Positions 9,351-32,460 of a stretch of DNA of 32,463 bases are shown piece by piece. The stretch is taken from NCBI GenBank assembly GCA_946630035.1, contig CAMOYN010000004.1, positions 1 to 32,463 on the forward strand, written 5' to 3'. The translations under genes and the position numbers were made by a program. Within the stretch, counting starts at the first letter, position 1, and every line of letters starts with the position of its first letter. Below the pieces are notes generated by a model that was not told where the DNA came from, ran no database searches, and saw only the letters and a program-made list of their open reading frames with translations. Source of the stretch: an uncultured Lachnospiraceae bacterium. Lineage in GTDB: Bacteria > Bacillota > Clostridia > Lachnospirales > Lachnospiraceae.

Positions 9351-9381
9351 CATTAGTCTGCCAACGGGAACAGATCCAGGA

Positions 9382-9408
9382 GGAGACAGGGGACAGACCC
9401 CTGTCTCC
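9382..9408. repeat. Palindromic element, GAGACA-arm class
   Basis: ggagacaggggacagacccctgtctcc is the exact reverse complement of 104-130 (27/27). Confidence 0.95.
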
Positions 9409-9426
9409 CTTGTATCCGCCACCTTG

Positions 9427-10373: not shown

Positions 10374-10506
10374 GTGGAACGAGGGGACGGTTCCTCCGTT
10401 CCATTTCTCTATCTTTCTCGATGTATGGAACGAAGGAACCGTCCCCTCGTTCCATTCTGCTATGTCTATCGATATGTGGAACGGAGGAACCGTCCCCTCA
10501 TTCCAC
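10374..10506. repeat. Three palindromic elements of the TGGAAC-arm class (10375-10403 +, 10426-10454 -, 10477-10505 -)
   Basis: tggaacgaggggacggttcctccgttcca and two inverted near-identical copies (1 mismatch each). Confidence 0.95.
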
Positions 10507-13316
10507 TAGCGGCGGCCGCCTTCCATGAAGGTGGTGCGGTCGTACCAGGCCGGCAGGATCATCGGCATCAGTTTCTCGGGATCCACATCCTCCAGATACT
10601 GCAGGGATGTGATCAGCAGGTTGTTCTCTGCATAGGCTCCGCCGACGATGGTGTTGATGGGCAGGCAGCCCCACGGGTCGTCGATGCTGGATTTCAGTTC
10701 GAGTTTCTTTACGAAGCCGGGGGTCCAGGAATCGTAGGTGTAGTTTACGATATTGCGGATCAGACCGGTATTGGTGAATCTCCATTTGCCGTTCTCGTCG
10801 GGCAGGCGGTCGAAGTGGAAATAGTATCCGCTGCCAGCGGTCTTCTTTCCGGCGGCCGGTGCCTGGTAGAGCACGTGGGTCAGAGGATGGTTGTAGCATC
10901 CCAGCTCCATTTCCACATTTACGATCTGGGTGCCGCGTCTTGCTACGCTGACGGCCACCTTGCCGTCGTTCTTGCGGATCACGAACTCGGCATCCAGTTT
11001 CTTCGGAATGGCGGAGTTGTCGCGGCCCAGCTGAGTGGCCATCTCGGCGCCCTGTCCGCCCAGAAGGAGGCTGATGGGATACATGCCGAGCTGTCCCTTG
11101 TAGGTGCAGTATACGCCAAGGATCGTCTCATAGTAATTATCCGCGAAGGTCGGATTCTTGATATGACATACGGACAGCGTCACCACCGGAATGGAGAAGG
11201 GCTCCAGCGGGGCGGGAAGGATCTTCCGGATCGCTTCGGGCTGTGTCAGATAAGCCAGGTAAATGCCTTCCTGACCGCGCATATCGGAAATCTTCGCGAA
11301 ATTCGCCACCTCTTCTTTCGGAATTACGAAGCTGGGCTCTGCGGGTTTGAAGAGTTCCGCTCCGACTTCGTAACCGGTGCGGGTGGCCGGAGCGATGGTG
11401 CCGTCCACGATGGCGGATCCAACCAGTTTCACCGGGATTCCCTTCTCCTCCAGGCCGGCCTTGAGGCTCTGATCCGGACGATAACCCAGGGACAGAACCA
11501 CGGCATCCGCTGTGATCTTCTTCTCTTCCTGCGTATCTACGTTGGTTACGATCACGCCGTCGGGAGTAATTTCCTTCAGGGCATGGCCCAGCTCCCAGGC
11601 GATATCCATCTTTTTCAGACGGGACATAATATCGGCCACATTGGTCTTGTAAGCATTGGTTCCGGCGGCCTTCAGCATATCCACGAAGGTGACTTTCAGG
11701 CCCTTGGCGCCGAGGAATTCACCGGTCTCCAGTCCGGTCAGGCCAGCGCCGATCATAGCCACGGATTTGCCGGTGATCTCTCTCTTGCCTGTCAGCACCT
11801 GTTCGATGGTATATACGTTCTCTCCATCAATGCCGGGGATGGATTTCGGAATGATGGAGGCAGATCCGGTGGCCAGTACCACGGCATCCGGCTCCAGGGC
11901 TGCGATTTCTTCCACCGTGGCTTCCTTGCCCAGACGAATGTCTACGCCGAGGCGCTTCAGGTCACCTCCCAGATAATCGGCAATCCACTGCATTCTCTCT
12001 TTCAGCGGAGGTTTCTTCGCCAGATTTACGGTACCACCCAGTTCTTCCTGACGGTCAATCAATGTCACCTTCACGCCGCGTTTCGCCAGCGTCTGAGCTG
12101 CCGTCATTCCGCCGGGGCCTCCGCCCACGACCACCGCTTTGTGTCCGGCGGTATCCGGTACCAGATCTCCGTAACGATATTCGTTACAGGTACGGGGATT
12201 AACGGCGCACTCAAACGGCAGGCCCTGTGCATTCAGGCCCAGCAGAGTCTCGAAGCAGCGCAGGCAGGAAATACATTTATTCAGCTCGTCCACACGGCCT
12301 TCCTGTACTTTCTTGCCCCACTCGGGCTCTGCCAGCCAGGTTCTTCCGAAGGCCACGAAGTCGGTCACACCATTCTCCAGGAAGGCTTCCGCCACTTCCG
12401 GTTCACGAATTGCGGAAACCGCGATCACGGGGATATTTACCTGATCCTTGACGGCCTTGATGAAATCCTTTCTCCAGCCCTGAGGGAAGGAAATAGGTTC
12501 CACGCTGACAATACCGGTCTCATAGAGTCCGCAGCTGACATCCACGAAATCAATGCCGGCGGCTTCCAGGGTCTTCACGATCTGGATACCGTCTTTCAGA
12601 TGAATGTAATCCTCGGTCACACCGATGTTGCTGAGGAATTCATCCACGGTTACACGGCAGCCCAATACATAGTCTTTGCCGCATTTTTTGCGGATATCTT
12701 CGATGATTTCCAGGACAATGCGCATCCGGTTCTCGAAGCTCCCGCCGTACTCATCGGTTCTCTTATTGGTATAGGGGGACAGGAACTGCTGCAGCAGATA
12801 GCCGTGGGCGCAATGAAGTTCCACGCCATCGATGCCGGCTTTCTTGCAGCGCAGTGCGGCATCACCGAACTGTCCCACCAGTTCATGGATCTCATCCAGG
12901 GTCATGGGGCGGGTTTCCTGCTGGGATACCTGACAGACACGGTCCGAAGCCGAGACGCAGGGCTGGCCGCCGATCAGAGAGGAGACGCCTTCTCTTCCGG
13001 GATGGTGCAGCTGGATAAAGATCTTCGATCCATGTTTGTGCACGGTCTGGGCCAGTTTCGCCAGCCCGGGAATATGACGGTCGCTGGTGGCCGAGATCTG
13101 ACGCAGCATACCGGCACCGGTCTTCTCATTCACCCGGCAGATTTCCGGCATGATCAGTCCGCAGCCGCCGATGGCACGGGCTTCAAAATAGGCCAGCATC
13201 GCAGGTCCGGGGGTTCCGTCCAGCTCCGCAAGATTCGTCCCCATGGGAGTCATCACCAGGCGGTTTTTGAGCTCTACGTTACCGATCCGCCCCTTTTCAA
13301 ACAACTTGTCGTACAT
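10506..13316 (-). CDS. OYE-type/2-enoate-reductase-like flavoprotein (FMN TIM barrel, Fe-S Cys cluster, FAD/NAD(P) domain) with C-terminal acetoacetate-decarboxylase-like domain
   Basis: MYDKLFEKGRIGNVELKNRLVMTPMG; HCAHGYLLQQFLSPYTNKRTDEYGGSFENR; CISCLRC..CAVNPRTC; VVVGGGPGGMTAAQTLAKRG; C-terminal IRKILPAPLEPF..YYET..GRDNSAIPKKLDAEF. Confidence 0.92.
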   Translation of the reverse strand: MYDKLFEKGRIGNVELKNRLVMTPMGTNLAELDGTPGPAMLAYFEARAIGGCGLIMPEICRVNEKTGAGMLRQISATSDRHIPGLAKLAQTVHKHGSKIFIQLHHPGREGVSSLIGGQPCVSASDRVCQVSQQETRPMTLDEIHELVGQFGDAALRCKKAGIDGVELHCAHGYLLQQFLSPYTNKRTDEYGGSFENRMRIVLEIIEDIRKKCGKDYVLGCRVTVDEFLSNIGVTEDYIHLKDGIQIVKTLEAAGIDFVDVSCGLYETGIVSVEPISFPQGWRKDFIKAVKDQVNIPVIAVSAIREPEVAEAFLENGVTDFVAFGRTWLAEPEWGKKVQEGRVDELNKCISCLRCFETLLGLNAQGLPFECAVNPRTCNEYRYGDLVPDTAGHKAVVVGGGPGGMTAAQTLAKRGVKVTLIDRQEELGGTVNLAKKPPLKERMQWIADYLGGDLKRLGVDIRLGKEATVEEIAALEPDAVVLATGSASIIPKSIPGIDGENVYTIEQVLTGKREITGKSVAMIGAGLTGLETGEFLGAKGLKVTFVDMLKAAGTNAYKTNVADIMSRLKKMDIAWELGHALKEITPDGVIVTNVDTQEEKKITADAVVLSLGYRPDQSLKAGLEEKGIPVKLVGSAIVDGTIAPATRTGYEVGAELFKPAEPSFVIPKEEVANFAKISDMRGQEGIYLAYLTQPEAIRKILPAPLEPFSIPVVTLSVCHIKNPTFADNYYETILGVYCTYKGQLGMYPISLLLGGQGAEMATQLGRDNSAIPKKLDAEFVIRKNDGKVAVSVARRGTQIVNVEMELGCYNHPLTHVLYQAPAAGKKTAGSGYYFHFDRLPDENGKWRFTNTGLIRNIVNYTYDSWTPGFVKKLELKSSIDDPWGCLPINTIVGGAYAENNLLITSLQYLEDVDPEKLMPMILPAWYDRTTFMEGGRR

Positions 13317-15200: not shown

Positions 15201-15215
15201 CCAGAAGCGCCAGCC

Positions 15216-15240
15216 GCCACCGGGGACAGGTCCCGGTGGC
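15216..15240. repeat. Palindromic element, CCACCGG-arm class
   Basis: GCCACCGGG-GACAGGT-CCCGGTGGC, 9-bp perfect stem, 15 nt after stop of PucR gene. Confidence 0.9.
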
Positions 15241-15256
15241 AGCTTTCTGTCTCATT

Positions 15257-18973: not shown

Positions 18974-19822
18974 CTATACTTCGATCTCATACAAATCCCC
19001 TATCTTCTCGAATATCATCGCGAAGTCCACTTCACATCGTCCTTCCCAGATTCCGACGGGGATTTTCTGTGTAAAATCATATACTTTGGGTTCCAGAACA
19101 GCAGGAAGGTTCGGATACACCAGTACCTGTTTCTGCTTTGGATCGACGATCCAGTACTCCCGCACGCCGGCCTTTCGATATTTTCCCAGCTTCAGTATCA
19201 GGTCCCTCTGTGCGGTGGAGGGGGAGAGGATCTCGATCACCAGATCCGGAGCCCCAAAACAGTTCCTGTGCGTGAGCTTCTCCCGGTCGCAGATAACCAT
19301 CAAATCCGGCTCCACCATGGTGCGGTTATCCCGATCCAGCTGCACGTCAAACGGTGAAATAAAGACTCTGCAATTTCCTTGATTTTGCTCTATGGCATCG
19401 GACAACCTCCTTCCCAGTTCCAATACGATAGCCTGGTGTAATGCAGAGGGTGACGCCATATCATAGAATACGCCATCGATCAGTTCCCGCCGCTGGTCAT
19501 CATCCAGAGCATAGTAGTCCTCTACCGTATATTTCCCCTGATTGTCATAGGTATGTAAATGTCCTGATTTTTTCTTGTGAACATATGAATGCGGATGGCT
19601 GTCGGACTCCTTAAAATACTCCTGTTCGGCGTTTTCCGCCAACGGCGTCTCCGAGACCCTGTCTGCATCCCCGTACTGCAGTGCCCGCCGCCGGAAGGCG
19701 GCGACCGCAATTTTCTCATGCTCACGCTCTGCCCTTCGTTTTTTATCTTTCATTTCCATACTCTTCCGACACTCCGAATCTACCTTGTGTAAATCATCTG
19801 CATTCTTCGGCCTACTGCTCAT
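18974..19822 (-). CDS. Uma2 family protein (DUF820, PD-(D/E)XK nuclease-like)
   Basis: YTVEDYYALDDDQRRELIDGVFYDMASPS..VEPDLMVICDREKL..GAPDLVIEILSPSTAQRDLILKLGKYRKAGVREYWIVDP. Confidence 0.92.
   Translation of the reverse strand: MSSRPKNADDLHKVDSECRKSMEMKDKKRRAEREHEKIAVAAFRRRALQYGDADRVSETPLAENAEQEYFKESDSHPHSYVHKKKSGHLHTYDNQGKYTVEDYYALDDDQRRELIDGVFYDMASPSALHQAIVLELGRRLSDAIEQNQGNCRVFISPFDVQLDRDNRTMVEPDLMVICDREKLTHRNCFGAPDLVIEILSPSTAQRDLILKLGKYRKAGVREYWIVDPKQKQVLVYPNLPAVLEPKVYDFTQKIPVGIWEGRCEVDFAMIFEKIGDLYEIEV
19640..19723. repeat. 84-nt exact direct repeat shared with 20497-20580 (within the tandem Uma2 genes)
   Basis: caacggcgtctccgagaccctgtctgcatccccgtactgcagtgcccgccgccggaaggcggcgaccgcaattttctcatgctc at both places. 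Confidence 0.9.
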
Positions 19823-20673
19823 CCTGCATCACCTTCTTCGGCCTCATACAGATACCTTATACTCTCGTATATCTCTGCGAAATCCACTTCGCATTCTCCT
19901 TCCCAGATGCCGACGGGGATTTTCTGTGTGAAATCATATACTTTTGGCTCCAGAGCAGCAGGAAGATTCGGATATACCAGTACCTGTTTCTGTCGTGGAT
20001 CGACGACCCAGTATTCCCGCACGCCGGCCTTCCGGTATTTTCCCAGCTTAAGAATCAGGTCTCTCTGGGCGGTAGAGGGGGAGAGGATCTCGATCACCAG
20101 GTCCGGCGCTCCGAAGCAGTTTCTGGGCGTAAGTTTCTCCCGGTCACAGATGACCATCAGATCTGGCTCCACCATTGTACGATTATCTCGATCCAGCTGA
20201 ACATCAAACGGCGCATACAGCACCTTGCAGCCGCCTTTGTTATTACTGATATAATTCTTCAGCCTCCAGAATAATTCTCCGGAAATCATCTGGTGTGTAA
20301 TCGAGGGTGACGCCATATCATAGAATACGCCGTCGATCAGTTCCCGCCGCTGGTCATCATCCAGAGCATAGTAGTCCTCTACCGTATACTTTCCCTGATT
20401 GTCATAGGTATGTAAATGTCCAGATTTTTTCTTGTGAGCATATGAATGCGGATGGCTGTCGGAATCCTTGATATACTCCTGCGCGACAGCTTCCGTCAAC
20501 GGCGTCTCCGAGACCCTGTCTGCATCCCCGTACTGCAGTGCCCGCCGCCGGAAGGCGGCGACCGCAATTTTCTCATGCTCCCGCTCTGCCCGGTATACTT
20601 CATCCGCAGAATCCGTGCCATTCTGTAATTCTGTCTCAATCCCGTGCGAATCATCCTTCCATTTCTCTGACAT
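19819..20673 (-). CDS. Uma2 family protein, tandem paralogue of the downstream gene; start placed at MSEKWKDDSHG
   Basis: Same motifs as 18974-19822; ATGA overlap with the downstream gene; GGAGG/GGGAG RBS before ATG at 20673. Confidence 0.9.
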   Translation of the reverse strand: MSEKWKDDSHGIETELQNGTDSADEVYRAEREHEKIAVAAFRRRALQYGDADRVSETPLTEAVAQEYIKDSDSHPHSYAHKKKSGHLHTYDNQGKYTVEDYYALDDDQRRELIDGVFYDMASPSITHQMISGELFWRLKNYISNNKGGCKVLYAPFDVQLDRDNRTMVEPDLMVICDREKLTPRNCFGAPDLVIEILSPSTAQRDLILKLGKYRKAGVREYWVVDPRQKQVLVYPNLPAALEPKVYDFTQKIPVGIWEGECEVDFAEIYESIRYLYEAEEGDAG

Positions 20674-20929
20674 CTCCCTGCGCCTCCATTTCTCTACATA
20701 TCGAAACATTCCGTATTTACCCTATTGTATCACCGCCGGGAGAAGTGTCAAGAAAAATATTTTATGGTTGTACAGATTCTGTGACGGATTGTTTTTCAGT
20801 TCAGCACCAGATATCGCTCCGACACCGGGAAAACTCATTTCAACCCGCGCAGTTCCGTCCTTTTGGCTTCTTCCCACGTATGAAGCCTTCATACATTTTT
20901 CTGTGAAAAATGTTCCAGATAGAATAAAA

Positions 20930-23840: not shown

Positions 23841-23877
23841 CCACCCGCCACCGGGACCTGTCCCCATTGGCGGGTGG
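23841..23877. repeat. Palindromic element, CCACC-arm class
   Basis: CCACCCGCCA-ccgggacctgtccccat-TGGCGGGTGG, 17 nt from stop codon of the 23895-24218 gene. Confidence 0.9.
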
Positions 23878-23894
23878 CTGATTGTTTCGCTGGT

Positions 23895-27123: not shown

Positions 27124-27129
27124 CCTCAC

Positions 27130-27273
27130 CCGCCGCCGGGGACAGGTCCCGGTGGCGGATCTTCCCCTGAGTTAGCAATACCCGCCACTGGGGACCTGTC
27201 CCCAGTGGCGGGTATTTTCGTTAGCGTCCAGGTCCCTGCGGCTGCGCCACCGGGACCTGTCCCCATTGGCGGG
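27130..27273. repeat. Cluster of three palindromic elements between convergent genes: 27130-27158 (+), 27177-27216 (18-bp perfect stem, 4-nt loop), 27244-27273 (-)
   Basis: ccgccgccggggacaggtcccggtggcgg; aatacccgccactgggga-cctg-tccccagtggcgggtatt; gcgccaccgggacctgtccccattggcggg. Confidence 0.95.
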
Positions 27274-27303
27274 ATGTCCCCGCTGGCGGGTGCTGGCGGG
27301 TAT

Positions 27304-28785: not shown

Positions 28786-28858
28786 ACTATTCTCCGTTCT
28801 GTTGATTGTATTGTATATCGGAAATATTGTACGGTATCCCGGACCGCAAGTCAACAGC

Positions 28859-28878
28859 AAGAACACCCCGGCGTTCTT
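28859..28878. repeat. 20-nt palindrome AAGAACACCCCGGCGTTCTT
   Basis: 19/20 identical to 18874-18893. Confidence 0.85.
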
Positions 28879-28881
28879 ATC

Positions 28882-29034
28882 CCACCAGTGGGGACAGGTC
28901 CCCCGTCGGATACGCCGCCGCCTCGCAAAACTCACCACCGGGGACAGGTCCCTCTGGCGGTTCATTGGTGGTTCACCGGCAAAAAGCCGCCACCGGGACC
29001 TGTCCCCGGTGGTGGGCGGTTCGGTGGCGGCTTT
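28882..29034. repeat. Cluster of three palindromic elements (28882-28909 +, 28933-28960 +, 28986-29013 -) with an alternative outer stem 28983-28995/29022-29034
   Basis: ccaccagtggggacaggtcccccgtcgg; caccaccggggacaggtccctctggcgg; gccgccaccgggacctgtccccggtgg; aaagccgccaccg/cggtggcggcttt. Confidence 0.92.
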
Positions 29035-29039
29035 GGGGT

Positions 29040-30803
29040 TTATTGTTCGGTGATGGTGCCGGCGCCGGTGACATCGGTTTCTGTGGTGTAGCTTTCTACT
29101 GTGATGGTGTACTCGCTGTCGCCTTCTACGTAGGTGGTTCCGTCGGTGCCTGTGATGGTTACGGTGTGGCCTTCGGTGTCGGTGATGGTGCCTGCGCATT
29201 CCAGTTGGGTGACGGTGCTGTCGCCGGTGACGATCCAGGATGAGGTCTCGTCGATCACGACCCGACAGTATCCGTCTCCGCCCTCGCCGGCGCAGGATTC
29301 GTCATCGATGATGGCTCCGGTCAGGACGCTGCTGTCGGTTACGTAGAGGTCGAGTTCGGAGATACTGTCCCAGAGAATGTCGCCGTTCATCTCCTGCTGA
29401 ATGGCGGTGAAGGTGCTGTCGGCGCCGTTGCTGCCGGTGGTGCCCCAGCCGCGCTGGTTGGCATTTCCGGTGGCGCGCAGGAAGTACTCGCTGTCTTCGG
29501 AGGCTTCGATGGTCACGTTGCGGATCACGAAGGTGCTGTCCGTGTTGGTGGTGTAGAAGAGGCCGCCGTTCTGGCTGACTAATGTCCCGCCGTCCATTTC
29601 AAAGCTGCCTTCGCCTACTTCGGAGTCGCCGGACATGCTCTGGTAGAGAATGACCGTCCAGGTATTGTCATTCTGCTCCTGATCAGGCATATTGCCGGTC
29701 AGTGTGCAGTCGTACAGTCGAACGGAGTTCAGTCCTTCCAGGCAAAGGGCTTCGGAACCGGTGGCTGTCAGTTCGGCGTCACGGATTGTGATGTCCGCGG
29801 TCACATAGACTGCCGGAGAGCCCTGGCCGTTGGCGGTATAGCTGCCGCCGTCCACCACCATGGTACCACTGCCCCGGTCGGAGCGGATCGCTGCAGAGGA
29901 TGCGCCGTCTGTATTTACGGTGAGGTTTTCTGCATATAATGTGCCGCCGCCTGCCACATGAATTCCTCCGGATGTGTCCTGGGTTGTGTTGATGGTGGAA
30001 TTGCTGACGTATACCACGCCGTCGCCGTAGCTGAATACACCGGCACCTCCGGCGGCATCGGTATCTATGGTCAGATTGTCCAGTGTCAGTGTTCCGCCGG
30101 TGGCCAGGATGGCAGCACCGACGCCGTAAAAGCTGGCGCTGTCCCCGCCGGTAGAATCCGTGGAAGTTCTGGTTACGGAAGCGTCTGTGAGGGAAACCTC
30201 ACCATCTGTCACCAGCAGTGCATTTTCGTCGGTGCCGGTGGATGTGATGTCTTCGGTCAGGATTTCATCCGAATCCACGGTTGTCACGGCATCATAGCTT
30301 TCCGGAGCTCCGCCGGAACCACCGCCGGGCATTCCGCCGGGGCCACCGTTTCCTCCGTCGGGAGGCGTTCCCATTTCACCGTTCCCGCCGGGAGGGGTTC
30401 CCATTTCGCCGTCGCCACCGCCGGGAGGGGTTCCGGGGCCTCCATTCTCACCATCCGGAGGCGTTCCCATCTCTCCGTTCTCTCCCCCGGGGGGCATTTC
30501 CGGTCTTCCCTCTTCCCCTTCGGAAGCGGCACTATCCCCGGCGGCTCCGTTTTCCCCGGAGACTGCGCCTTCGCTCGCGGCGGCTCCGTTTTCTCCGGAA
30601 GCCGTTCCGCTTTCTTCCACATCCGCCGCAGTCTGGGCGGTCGTCTGTTCCGCCGCAAAGGTGGTTGTTCCGGCACTTCCGGCGACCATCGCTGCCATCA
30701 GCATCCACACAAGCCATTTCTTACGATTAACACATTTTTTACTGTTGTTCCTGTTACACGGATTATTCTTATCAAGGATATTATTGTCGCTCGTTCTCAT
30801 CAT
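29040..30803 (-). CDS. Secreted Gly/Pro/Glu-rich, beta-helix-like surface protein
   Basis: Signal peptide KKWLVWMLMAAMVAGSAGTTTFAAEQ; PPGGENGEMGTPPDGENGGPGTPPGGG low-complexity repeats; T/S/G-rich beta-solenoid-like remainder; ATG at 30803 with upstream GAGG. Confidence 0.75.
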   Translation of the reverse strand: MMRTSDNNILDKNNPCNRNNSKKCVNRKKWLVWMLMAAMVAGSAGTTTFAAEQTTAQTAADVEESGTASGENGAAASEGAVSGENGAAGDSAASEGEEGRPEMPPGGENGEMGTPPDGENGGPGTPPGGGDGEMGTPPGGNGEMGTPPDGGNGGPGGMPGGGSGGAPESYDAVTTVDSDEILTEDITSTGTDENALLVTDGEVSLTDASVTRTSTDSTGGDSASFYGVGAAILATGGTLTLDNLTIDTDAAGGAGVFSYGDGVVYVSNSTINTTQDTSGGIHVAGGGTLYAENLTVNTDGASSAAIRSDRGSGTMVVDGGSYTANGQGSPAVYVTADITIRDAELTATGSEALCLEGLNSVRLYDCTLTGNMPDQEQNDNTWTVILYQSMSGDSEVGEGSFEMDGGTLVSQNGGLFYTTNTDSTFVIRNVTIEASEDSEYFLRATGNANQRGWGTTGSNGADSTFTAIQQEMNGDILWDSISELDLYVTDSSVLTGAIIDDESCAGEGGDGYCRVVIDETSSWIVTGDSTVTQLECAGTITDTEGHTVTITGTDGTTYVEGDSEYTITVESYTTETDVTGAGTITEQ

Positions 30804-31112
30804 AGTCGCTGTCCTCACTTTCTATTTCATTGCGGAGCCATGCACATTGCGGCGCTTTGCCGGGTTCTCTCAGCGGATTTCTCTTACTACATTAAGTTAT
30901 CCGCTTTGCTTTTGGATGATTTCCTCTTGCTGACTATAGACTACGGCTCGTTCCTTAAATATACCTTAAACCAATTGTGTTCTATTTGTGTTTTCTCTAT
31001 CCTTGCTTAGTGTCCGCGCTTATGATACTATACTAAATAGTTGGCGGGCAAGATGTTTCTTAAAAACTCAGCTTGCGTCTTTTCACCAGAAAGGGATTCA
31101 GGTTCCATTATT

Positions 31113-32321
31113 ATGAACACACAACAGAACACACATCGTTTTCGCAATCAGCTCCTGGCTCTGGCGGCCTGCGCCGCCGTTGTCTGCCTGGTAGTTATGC
31201 TGTTCTTCCGCACGGAGATCTTCACCGCGGGGGTCAGCAAGGCATTAAATATTCTCATGCCTTTCATTTACGGCGCCATCATTGCCTATCTGATCCGCCC
31301 GACCTGTGAATGGGTGGAGCATATGCTGGAGCGCCTCCTGGGGAATATTTCCCCGAAAAAAAAGGAGCGGTCTTTCCGCTTCCCCGCCATTCTGATTTCC
31401 ATGATACTGTTGTTCGTCGTCATCATTCTTCTGCTGCTGGCAGTACTGCCGGAAATGATCAACAGCCTCTCCCGGATTCTTTCCCAGCTTCCGACCGCAG
31501 CGCAGAATTTCAGCGCCTGGATCGAGACCCTGGATACCGGCGAGACCAGCCACGAACTGGTGAGTCAGATCCAGCAGACCCTGGCTACCGTCACCGATTA
31601 TGTGCAGAATTTCCTGCAGACAACGGTACTGCCGAACCTGAAAACCATGATTTCCAATGTCACTTCCAGTTTCAGCAACCTGCTGGGGGTTGTAAAAAAC
31701 TTCGGCCTTGGTTTTATCATTTCCGCGTATATTCTGGGCAGCTGGGAGAAATTCGCCGCGCAGATCCGCGTAGCTGTCTATGGATTTTTCCCCCAGGCAG
31801 CGGCCGACTGGATCTTCCGGGAAGCGGACTTCTCCAACCAGATGTTCCGCGGTTTCATCAACGGAAAACTTCTCGACTCCCTGATCATCGGCATCCTCTG
31901 CTTTATTTTCATGCTGATCGCCCGGATGCCCTACGCCATCCTGATCGCCATCATCGTCGGGGTAACCAATATCATCCCCTTCTTCGGGCCTTATCTCGGC
32001 GCCATCCCCTCCGCCCTGCTGCTGCTGACCATAAGTCCGATCCGATGCCTGATCTTCCTGGTCTTCATCATTATACTGCAGCAATTTGACGGAAATGTAC
32101 TGGGACCCAAGATTCTGGGCGACAAGCTCGGCATCTCCAGTTTCTGGATTCTCTTCTCGATTCTGGTATTCGGTTCCCTGTGGGGCCTGGTGGGCATGCT
32201 CATCGGCGCACCGATCTTCGCCGTGATCTATGACATCATCCGCACCTTCCTCAAGAACAGCCTTCGCCGGCGCGGCCGCGAAGACATCCTCCGGGACTAC
32301 CAGAAACACCACTCCTCGTGA
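31113..32321 (+). CDS. AI-2E family transporter / putative permease
   Basis: Multi-TM; NILMPFIYGAIIAYLIRPTCEWVEHML..NIIPFFGPYLGAIPSALLLLTISP..LQQFDGNVLGPKILGDKLGISSFWILFSILVFGSLWGLVGMLIGAPIFAVIYDI. Confidence 0.92.
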   Translation: MNTQQNTHRFRNQLLALAACAAVVCLVVMLFFRTEIFTAGVSKALNILMPFIYGAIIAYLIRPTCEWVEHMLERLLGNISPKKKERSFRFPAILISMILLFVVIILLLLAVLPEMINSLSRILSQLPTAAQNFSAWIETLDTGETSHELVSQIQQTLATVTDYVQNFLQTTVLPNLKTMISNVTSSFSNLLGVVKNFGLGFIISAYILGSWEKFAAQIRVAVYGFFPQAAADWIFREADFSNQMFRGFINGKLLDSLIIGILCFIFMLIARMPYAILIAIIVGVTNIIPFFGPYLGAIPSALLLLTISPIRCLIFLVFIIILQQFDGNVLGPKILGDKLGISSFWILFSILVFGSLWGLVGMLIGAPIFAVIYDIIRTFLKNSLRRRGREDILRDYQKHHSS

Positions 32322-32349
32322 GTCAGAAGGGACGGTTCTTTTTGACTCA
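32319..32349. repeat. Palindromic element, TGAGTCA-arm class, overlapping the stop codon of the upstream gene
   Basis: tgagtcagaagggacggttctttttgactca; TGA 32319-32321 is the stop codon. Confidence 0.9.
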
Positions 32350-32378
32350 TTGCAAACAATTGAGAGGCAGGGGACGAG

Positions 32379-32460
32379 GGAGACAGGGTGGAGACAGGGG
32401 ACGGACGTGTGTCTCCCGTTTGGGAGACACACGTCCGTCCCCTGTCTCCACCCTGTCTCC
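32379..32460. repeat. 39-bp perfect inverted repeat with 4-nt loop built from two inverted GAGACA-class elements
   Basis: ggagacagggtggagacaggggacggacgtgtgtctccc (32379-32417) / gttt / exact reverse complement (32422-32460). Confidence 0.97.

Follow-up and report, generated by a model that had tools for sequence, protein, structure and literature searches.

A probable REPIN-like repeat family at the stop codon of an AI-2E-type permease gene in an uncultured Lachnospiraceae bacterium

TIRs with the motif GGGGWSAS adjoin genes for tyrosine transposases (TIRYT genes), as described for the TIRtrons by Di Nocera et al. (2013; PMC3733652). REPINs are inverted doublets that carry compensatory changes (Bertels and Rainey 2011; PMC3116915). 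Furthermore, the termini of GTAG REPs have been reported to act as the stop codons of flanking ORFs (PMC3733652). Here, we investigated a locus at the end of a 32,463-nucleotide stretch of DNA, referred to as the window, which is the entire contig C4 (G000:C4) of a 262-contig, 67%-complete genome. At this locus a short stem-loop ends an AI-2E-type permease gene and is followed by a 39-bp inverted repeat. The stem-loop and the repeat fall within a single superfamily of short palindromes. We consider its elements to be, very probably, miniature mobile elements akin to REPINs, of the kind linked to REP-associated tyrosine transposases (RAYTs), and to come from the GGGGWSAS TIRYT branch. A literature search for the letters of the motif returned nothing on topic.

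The permease stop and the adjoining inverted repeat

The features of the locus, along with three unrelated features of the window, are listed in Table 1. The permease gene ends in a 31-nt stem-loop, TGAGTCAGAAGGGACGGTTCTTTTTGACTCA, whose first three bases are the in-frame TGA stop of the ORF, as the first-pass annotation of this DNA had claimed. As single-stranded DNA the stem-loop folds at -5.1 kcal/mol (z -3.1). It represents one half of a unit that normally is an inverted pair. At the permease stop, this class A half and its spacer are intact and are followed by a degenerate class-B-like sequence and a class B pair, with no second A half. The same composite design, with one A half and its spacer, class B sequence joined on the loop side and the other A half missing, was found at L122:7239-7332, L130:4207-4308, L131:12600-12665 and L184:3105-3161 as well as here at 32319-32460.

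Table 1. Features of the permease locus and other features of the window
Feature	Position	Strand	Details and evidence
AI-2E family permease gene	31041..32321	+	ORF of 426 codons; AI-2E_transport PF01594, E 2.4e-53; orthologue C-terminus; TGA 32319-32321 is that of the element
Class A half-element TGAGTCA-GAAGGGACGGTTCTTTT-TGACTCA	32319..32349	+	7-bp stem, tag GGGACGG in loop
12-nt spacer ATTGCAAACAAT, normally between two inverted A halves; second half absent here	32349..32360	+	ATTGNNNNCAAT spacer in nearly all same-class A pairs
Degenerate class-B-like sequence TGAGAGGCAGGGGACGAG in place of second A half	32361..32378	+	Sequence comparison
Left arm of class B inverted pair, GGAGACAGGGT + GGAGACAGGGGACGGACGTGTGTCTCCC	32379..32417	+	
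Loop GTTT	32418..32421	+	
Right arm of class B inverted pair	32422..32460	-	Perfect complement of left arm
936-aa protein	10506..13316		NADH:flavin oxidoreductase (Oxidored_FMN), pyridine nucleotide-disulphide oxidoreductase and acetoacetate decarboxylase-like domain
Tandem Uma2-family gene pair	18974..20709	-	Two compared 300-bp stretches 86% and 93% identical
592-aa ORF	29040..30818	-	Internal repeats, no Pfam match

The inverted repeat begins 29 nt past the class A half-element, and its arms are paired at 39/39 bp. The longest arm in 20 shuffled windows was 7-11 bp. As single-stranded DNA the hairpin folds at -56.5 kcal/mol (z = -14.6). The contig continues for 3 nt past the hairpin, which should therefore be confirmed by reads; this position is also what might be expected of a fold-back produced during assembly. 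However, the mirror symmetry is broken at position 40 (G vs A). Furthermore, the inner class B pair recurs mid-contig at L132:11547-11606, and the extended outer arm recurs mid-contig, in slightly imperfect form, at G000:C101:7195-7277. Tags were also not enriched at contig ends (5/61 ends, against 7% of random 150-mers). Therefore, a fold-back origin is unlikely, and we give an assembly artefact a slim chance.

A common tag, several stem classes and matched arms

The members of the superfamily share a constant tag, GGGGACGG or GGGGACAG, along with variable complementary stems, and the units often form inverted pairs. The pattern GGGGACGGW occurs 279 times in the genome, while the reversed pattern, used as a control, occurs 44 times. 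In the contig stretches read, the common tag is combined with four main stem classes: class A (TGAGTCA..TGACTCA), class B (GGAGACA..TGTCTCC), class C (TGGAACG..CGTTCCA), and class D (CCGCCACC..GGTGGCGG). Classes A, B, and C carry GGGGACGG, and GGGGACAG is found in class D and part of class B. The spacer within A-A pairs is nearly constant at 12 nt, with the form given in Table 1 in 14/15 cases. In 726 kb there are 33 hairpins whose arms reach 22 bp or more; most of these carry the tag, are inverted pairs, and sit mid-contig. REPIN/RAYT elements of the TIRYT branch are dispersed short palindromes in many copies, with a unit of two inverted copies at fixed spacing, and both of these features are present in this genome; the permease locus itself holds one A half and a complete B pair. 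Within the window, further copies of classes B, C, and D, several of them inverted pairs, lie at 56-176, 9358-9413, 10374-10506, 15209-15249, 23843-23878, 27127-27297, and 28857-29019.

Class A is present as 106 half-copies in this genome and was absent from all ten congeners searched, which points to a recent expansion of the class in this species. Elsewhere in the family we counted 12 in one other genus and 14 in one further genus. Class A was also found in several Bacillota MAGs, with record titles that give sheep or cattle gut or rumen sources.

The elements are located mostly just downstream of genes, and their long hairpins would be stable in RNA. Both observations are compatible with host regulatory RNA or terminator structures that are retained at 3' ends to stabilize the mRNA or to bring about termination and are not mobile. 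However, there was no terminator-like match at the 32319 element, and no Rfam family matched in the window at gathering score. The restriction of class A to this species among its congeners also speaks against such a function, as do the copies of the same elements that flank transposase genes in other genomes (see below). We therefore regard a purely regulatory origin as highly improbable. A secondary role in mRNA may still be played by elements that are mobile.

The perfect identity of the 39-bp arms had been read in the first-pass annotation as a mark of recent formation or active homogenization. However, matched arms are the norm in this family, as 14/25 of the A-A pairs listed have identical arms over 34 positions. 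Therefore, the perfect arms at 32379-32460 are no special sign of youth. The recent expansion of class A, confined to this species within the genus, does agree with that claim, as does the covariation of arms: a variant in one arm of a pair is mirrored in the other more often than random re-pairing gives (A outer and B inner arms; 0/5000 permutations). Such mirroring could also be produced by palindrome correction through template switching at the replication fork (quasipalindrome mutation), for which no transposase is needed and which is compatible with the REPIN-like explanation. However, the same pattern is predicted if whole pairs are copied and selected for their ability to form a hairpin, compensatory changes are known in REPINs too (PMC3116915), and template switching leaves the dispersal of the elements unexplained. 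Whole-pair copying with hairpin selection and template-switch correction both fit the covarying arms, and our data do not separate them; we consider template-switch correction a possible contributor to arm upkeep, if a rather doubtful one.

Stop codons provided by the elements

The insertion could have left the permease intact or truncated it, and replacement of the native C-terminus had been one of the options raised from the sequence. This option did not hold up in our alignment. In the nearest permease orthologue (G009, 54% identity), the C-terminus can be aligned gap-free up to the same last column, and the stop is TAA with no element there. No orthologue was seen that has the same C-terminus and the same TGA but lacks the element. 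As the nearest orthologue ends at the same column, there is no sign of lost permease residues, judging from the alignment, and a swap of the last few residues would be possible at 54% identity. Truncation is not without precedent among the elements, as there are 11 further cases of incoming ORFs in other frames running into class A elements, so insertions into coding ends occur; some permease homologues are also 10-40 residues longer. However, besides the G009 orthologue with its TAA, several other genes that are ended by an element's TGA or TAA cover their family profile all the way, or nearly all the way, to its end. Thus, we consider it fairly unlikely that the element truncated the permease.

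The permease gene of G009 (L052) is itself followed, 15 nt past its stop, by a palindromic pair that is similar in design but different (GACAGAGGGACGTTTATGACAGA...). This pair apparently was inserted independently at the corresponding end of the gene.

Class A edges carry TGA or TAA in 64/72 cases in the stretches read, and in 14/72 an incoming ORF of 100 codons or more takes its stop from the edge. The permease stop is thus not a singular event. Compared with random TGA trinucleotides near incoming ORFs (121/746), the elements show a modest excess of such stops (14/48, p 0.02). We preferred this null because the element edge itself is mostly TGA; a uniform null for the coincidence (14/37, p 4e-17) was dropped on the same ground. 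The ability of REP ends to provide stop codons is already published (PMC3733652). Separately, an 880-aa UvrA-like protein at L170:3189-5828 (G000:C101) is ended by a class A TGA and scores 703.8 bits against a UvrA model cut-off of 729.8 bits; a second UvrA-like gene is present on C176.

RAYT genes, a proposed mechanism and known systems

Elements of the family flank RAYT genes in other genomes. Class A elements lie on both sides of a RAYT gene in G333 (L188), upstream of a RAYT gene in G339 (L187), and, in G338 (L158), just upstream of a RAYT fragment with which a contig ends. In the congener G006 (L098), class B elements (GGAGACA) stand on either side of a RAYT gene. The G006 protein matches PF01797 (Y1_Tnp) above cut-off (E 4e-13) and NF047646 (REP_Tyr_transpos) below the cut-off of that model (E 7e-19); no solved structure was matched to it by sequence. 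Across the loci compared, a tagged stem-loop was present within 700 bp of 12/22 RAYT-type loci, one of which (L099) is weak, and of 0/20 IS200-type loci (Fisher p 6e-5). The remaining 10/22 RAYT-type loci are without tagged elements. The best Y1_Tnp matches in the relatives are plain IS200 transposases that do not have the elements. Beside different RAYTs the tag is invariant and the stem differs on both sides, with the full pairing of these stems being partly due to their selection as stem-loops.

No RAYT was found in the 67%-complete assembly of this genome, and the flanking copies come from other genomes (L188, L187, L158, L098). This is one of two main weaknesses of a RAYT-based explanation. 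The other is G019, where no Y1 transposase was matched at all. In that genome, which is 96% complete (L165-L168), GGGGACGGW occurs 137 times against 17 for the control, and class A pairs have a much longer spacer. Thus, a RAYT in the same genome is not needed for the elements to be kept, or perhaps even to move. Neither an empty site nor a transposition event was seen.

From the family, its tag, the covarying and paired stems, the species-specific amplification and the RAYT linkage elsewhere, we infer a route of cutting, a single-stranded DNA intermediate and an order of events at the permease locus. Each half would be a short stem-loop with its constant tag, and two inverted halves would form the mobile unit, which as a single strand could adopt one long hairpin or two short ones. 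A RAYT of the HUH type, supplied in trans, would recognize the tag and the matching stem on single-stranded DNA, then cut and rejoin the pair and insert it elsewhere, mostly just behind genes. At the permease, a class A unit would have landed at the 3' end of the gene with its terminal TGA becoming the stop codon; the second A half would have been lost later, and the class B pair now occupies its place.

More tentatively, and as a suggestion we would ourselves back with little confidence, a RAYT may read a two-part address. This would consist of the invariant tag and an interchangeable stem that differs by RAYT lineage and is matched on both arms. A genome might then hold several separately mobilized REPIN families, each rewritten as a perfect palindrome on copying. 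What appeared to be an oddity at one stop codon is one member of an extensive repeat family that has expanded recently and is tied to RAYT genes through flanking copies elsewhere. With one tag, several stem classes, and RAYTs with known flanking stems, it becomes testable whether a RAYT reads the stem too, and how REPIN arms stay matched.

The IS200/IS605 subterminal hairpins resemble these elements in that a transposase of the HUH Y1 superfamily acts on hairpins. However, the IS200-type loci of the relatives, as counted above, are without such elements. GTAG and CGTC REPs (PMC3733652) are likewise short dispersed palindromes near gene 3' ends. Unlike these, the present elements have no terminal GTAG or CGTC tag, and the stop codon provided is TGA or TAA. 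In the elements read, the stem does not have the constant GTAG that marks its 5' foot in a canonical GTAG REP, and the terminal unpaired CGTC of CGTC REPs was absent, with CGTC occurring solely in the sequence complementary to the internal tag.

The likeness to REPINs and their RAYTs (PMC3116915) is closer. In both, inverted doublets form one long hairpin, halves that occur singly are decayed remnants, the arms carry compensatory changes, and there is linkage to RAYT genes. In REPINs, GTAG is at the foot, whereas here the tag GGGGACGG lies inside the palindrome, enclosed by the short stem of each half. With the TIRtrons and TIRYT TIR families (PMC3733652), the elements share a G-rich conserved motif within inverted repeats that flank RAYT-like tyrosine transposase genes, and a dispersal as singles, pairs, and clusters. 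The main tag here, GGGGACGG, is one position off GGGGWSAS, whereas GGGGACAG fits it. The host here is a MAG, and the class A relatives are in Bacillota MAGs. Unlike in those families, a single genome here holds hundreds of copies and several stem classes.
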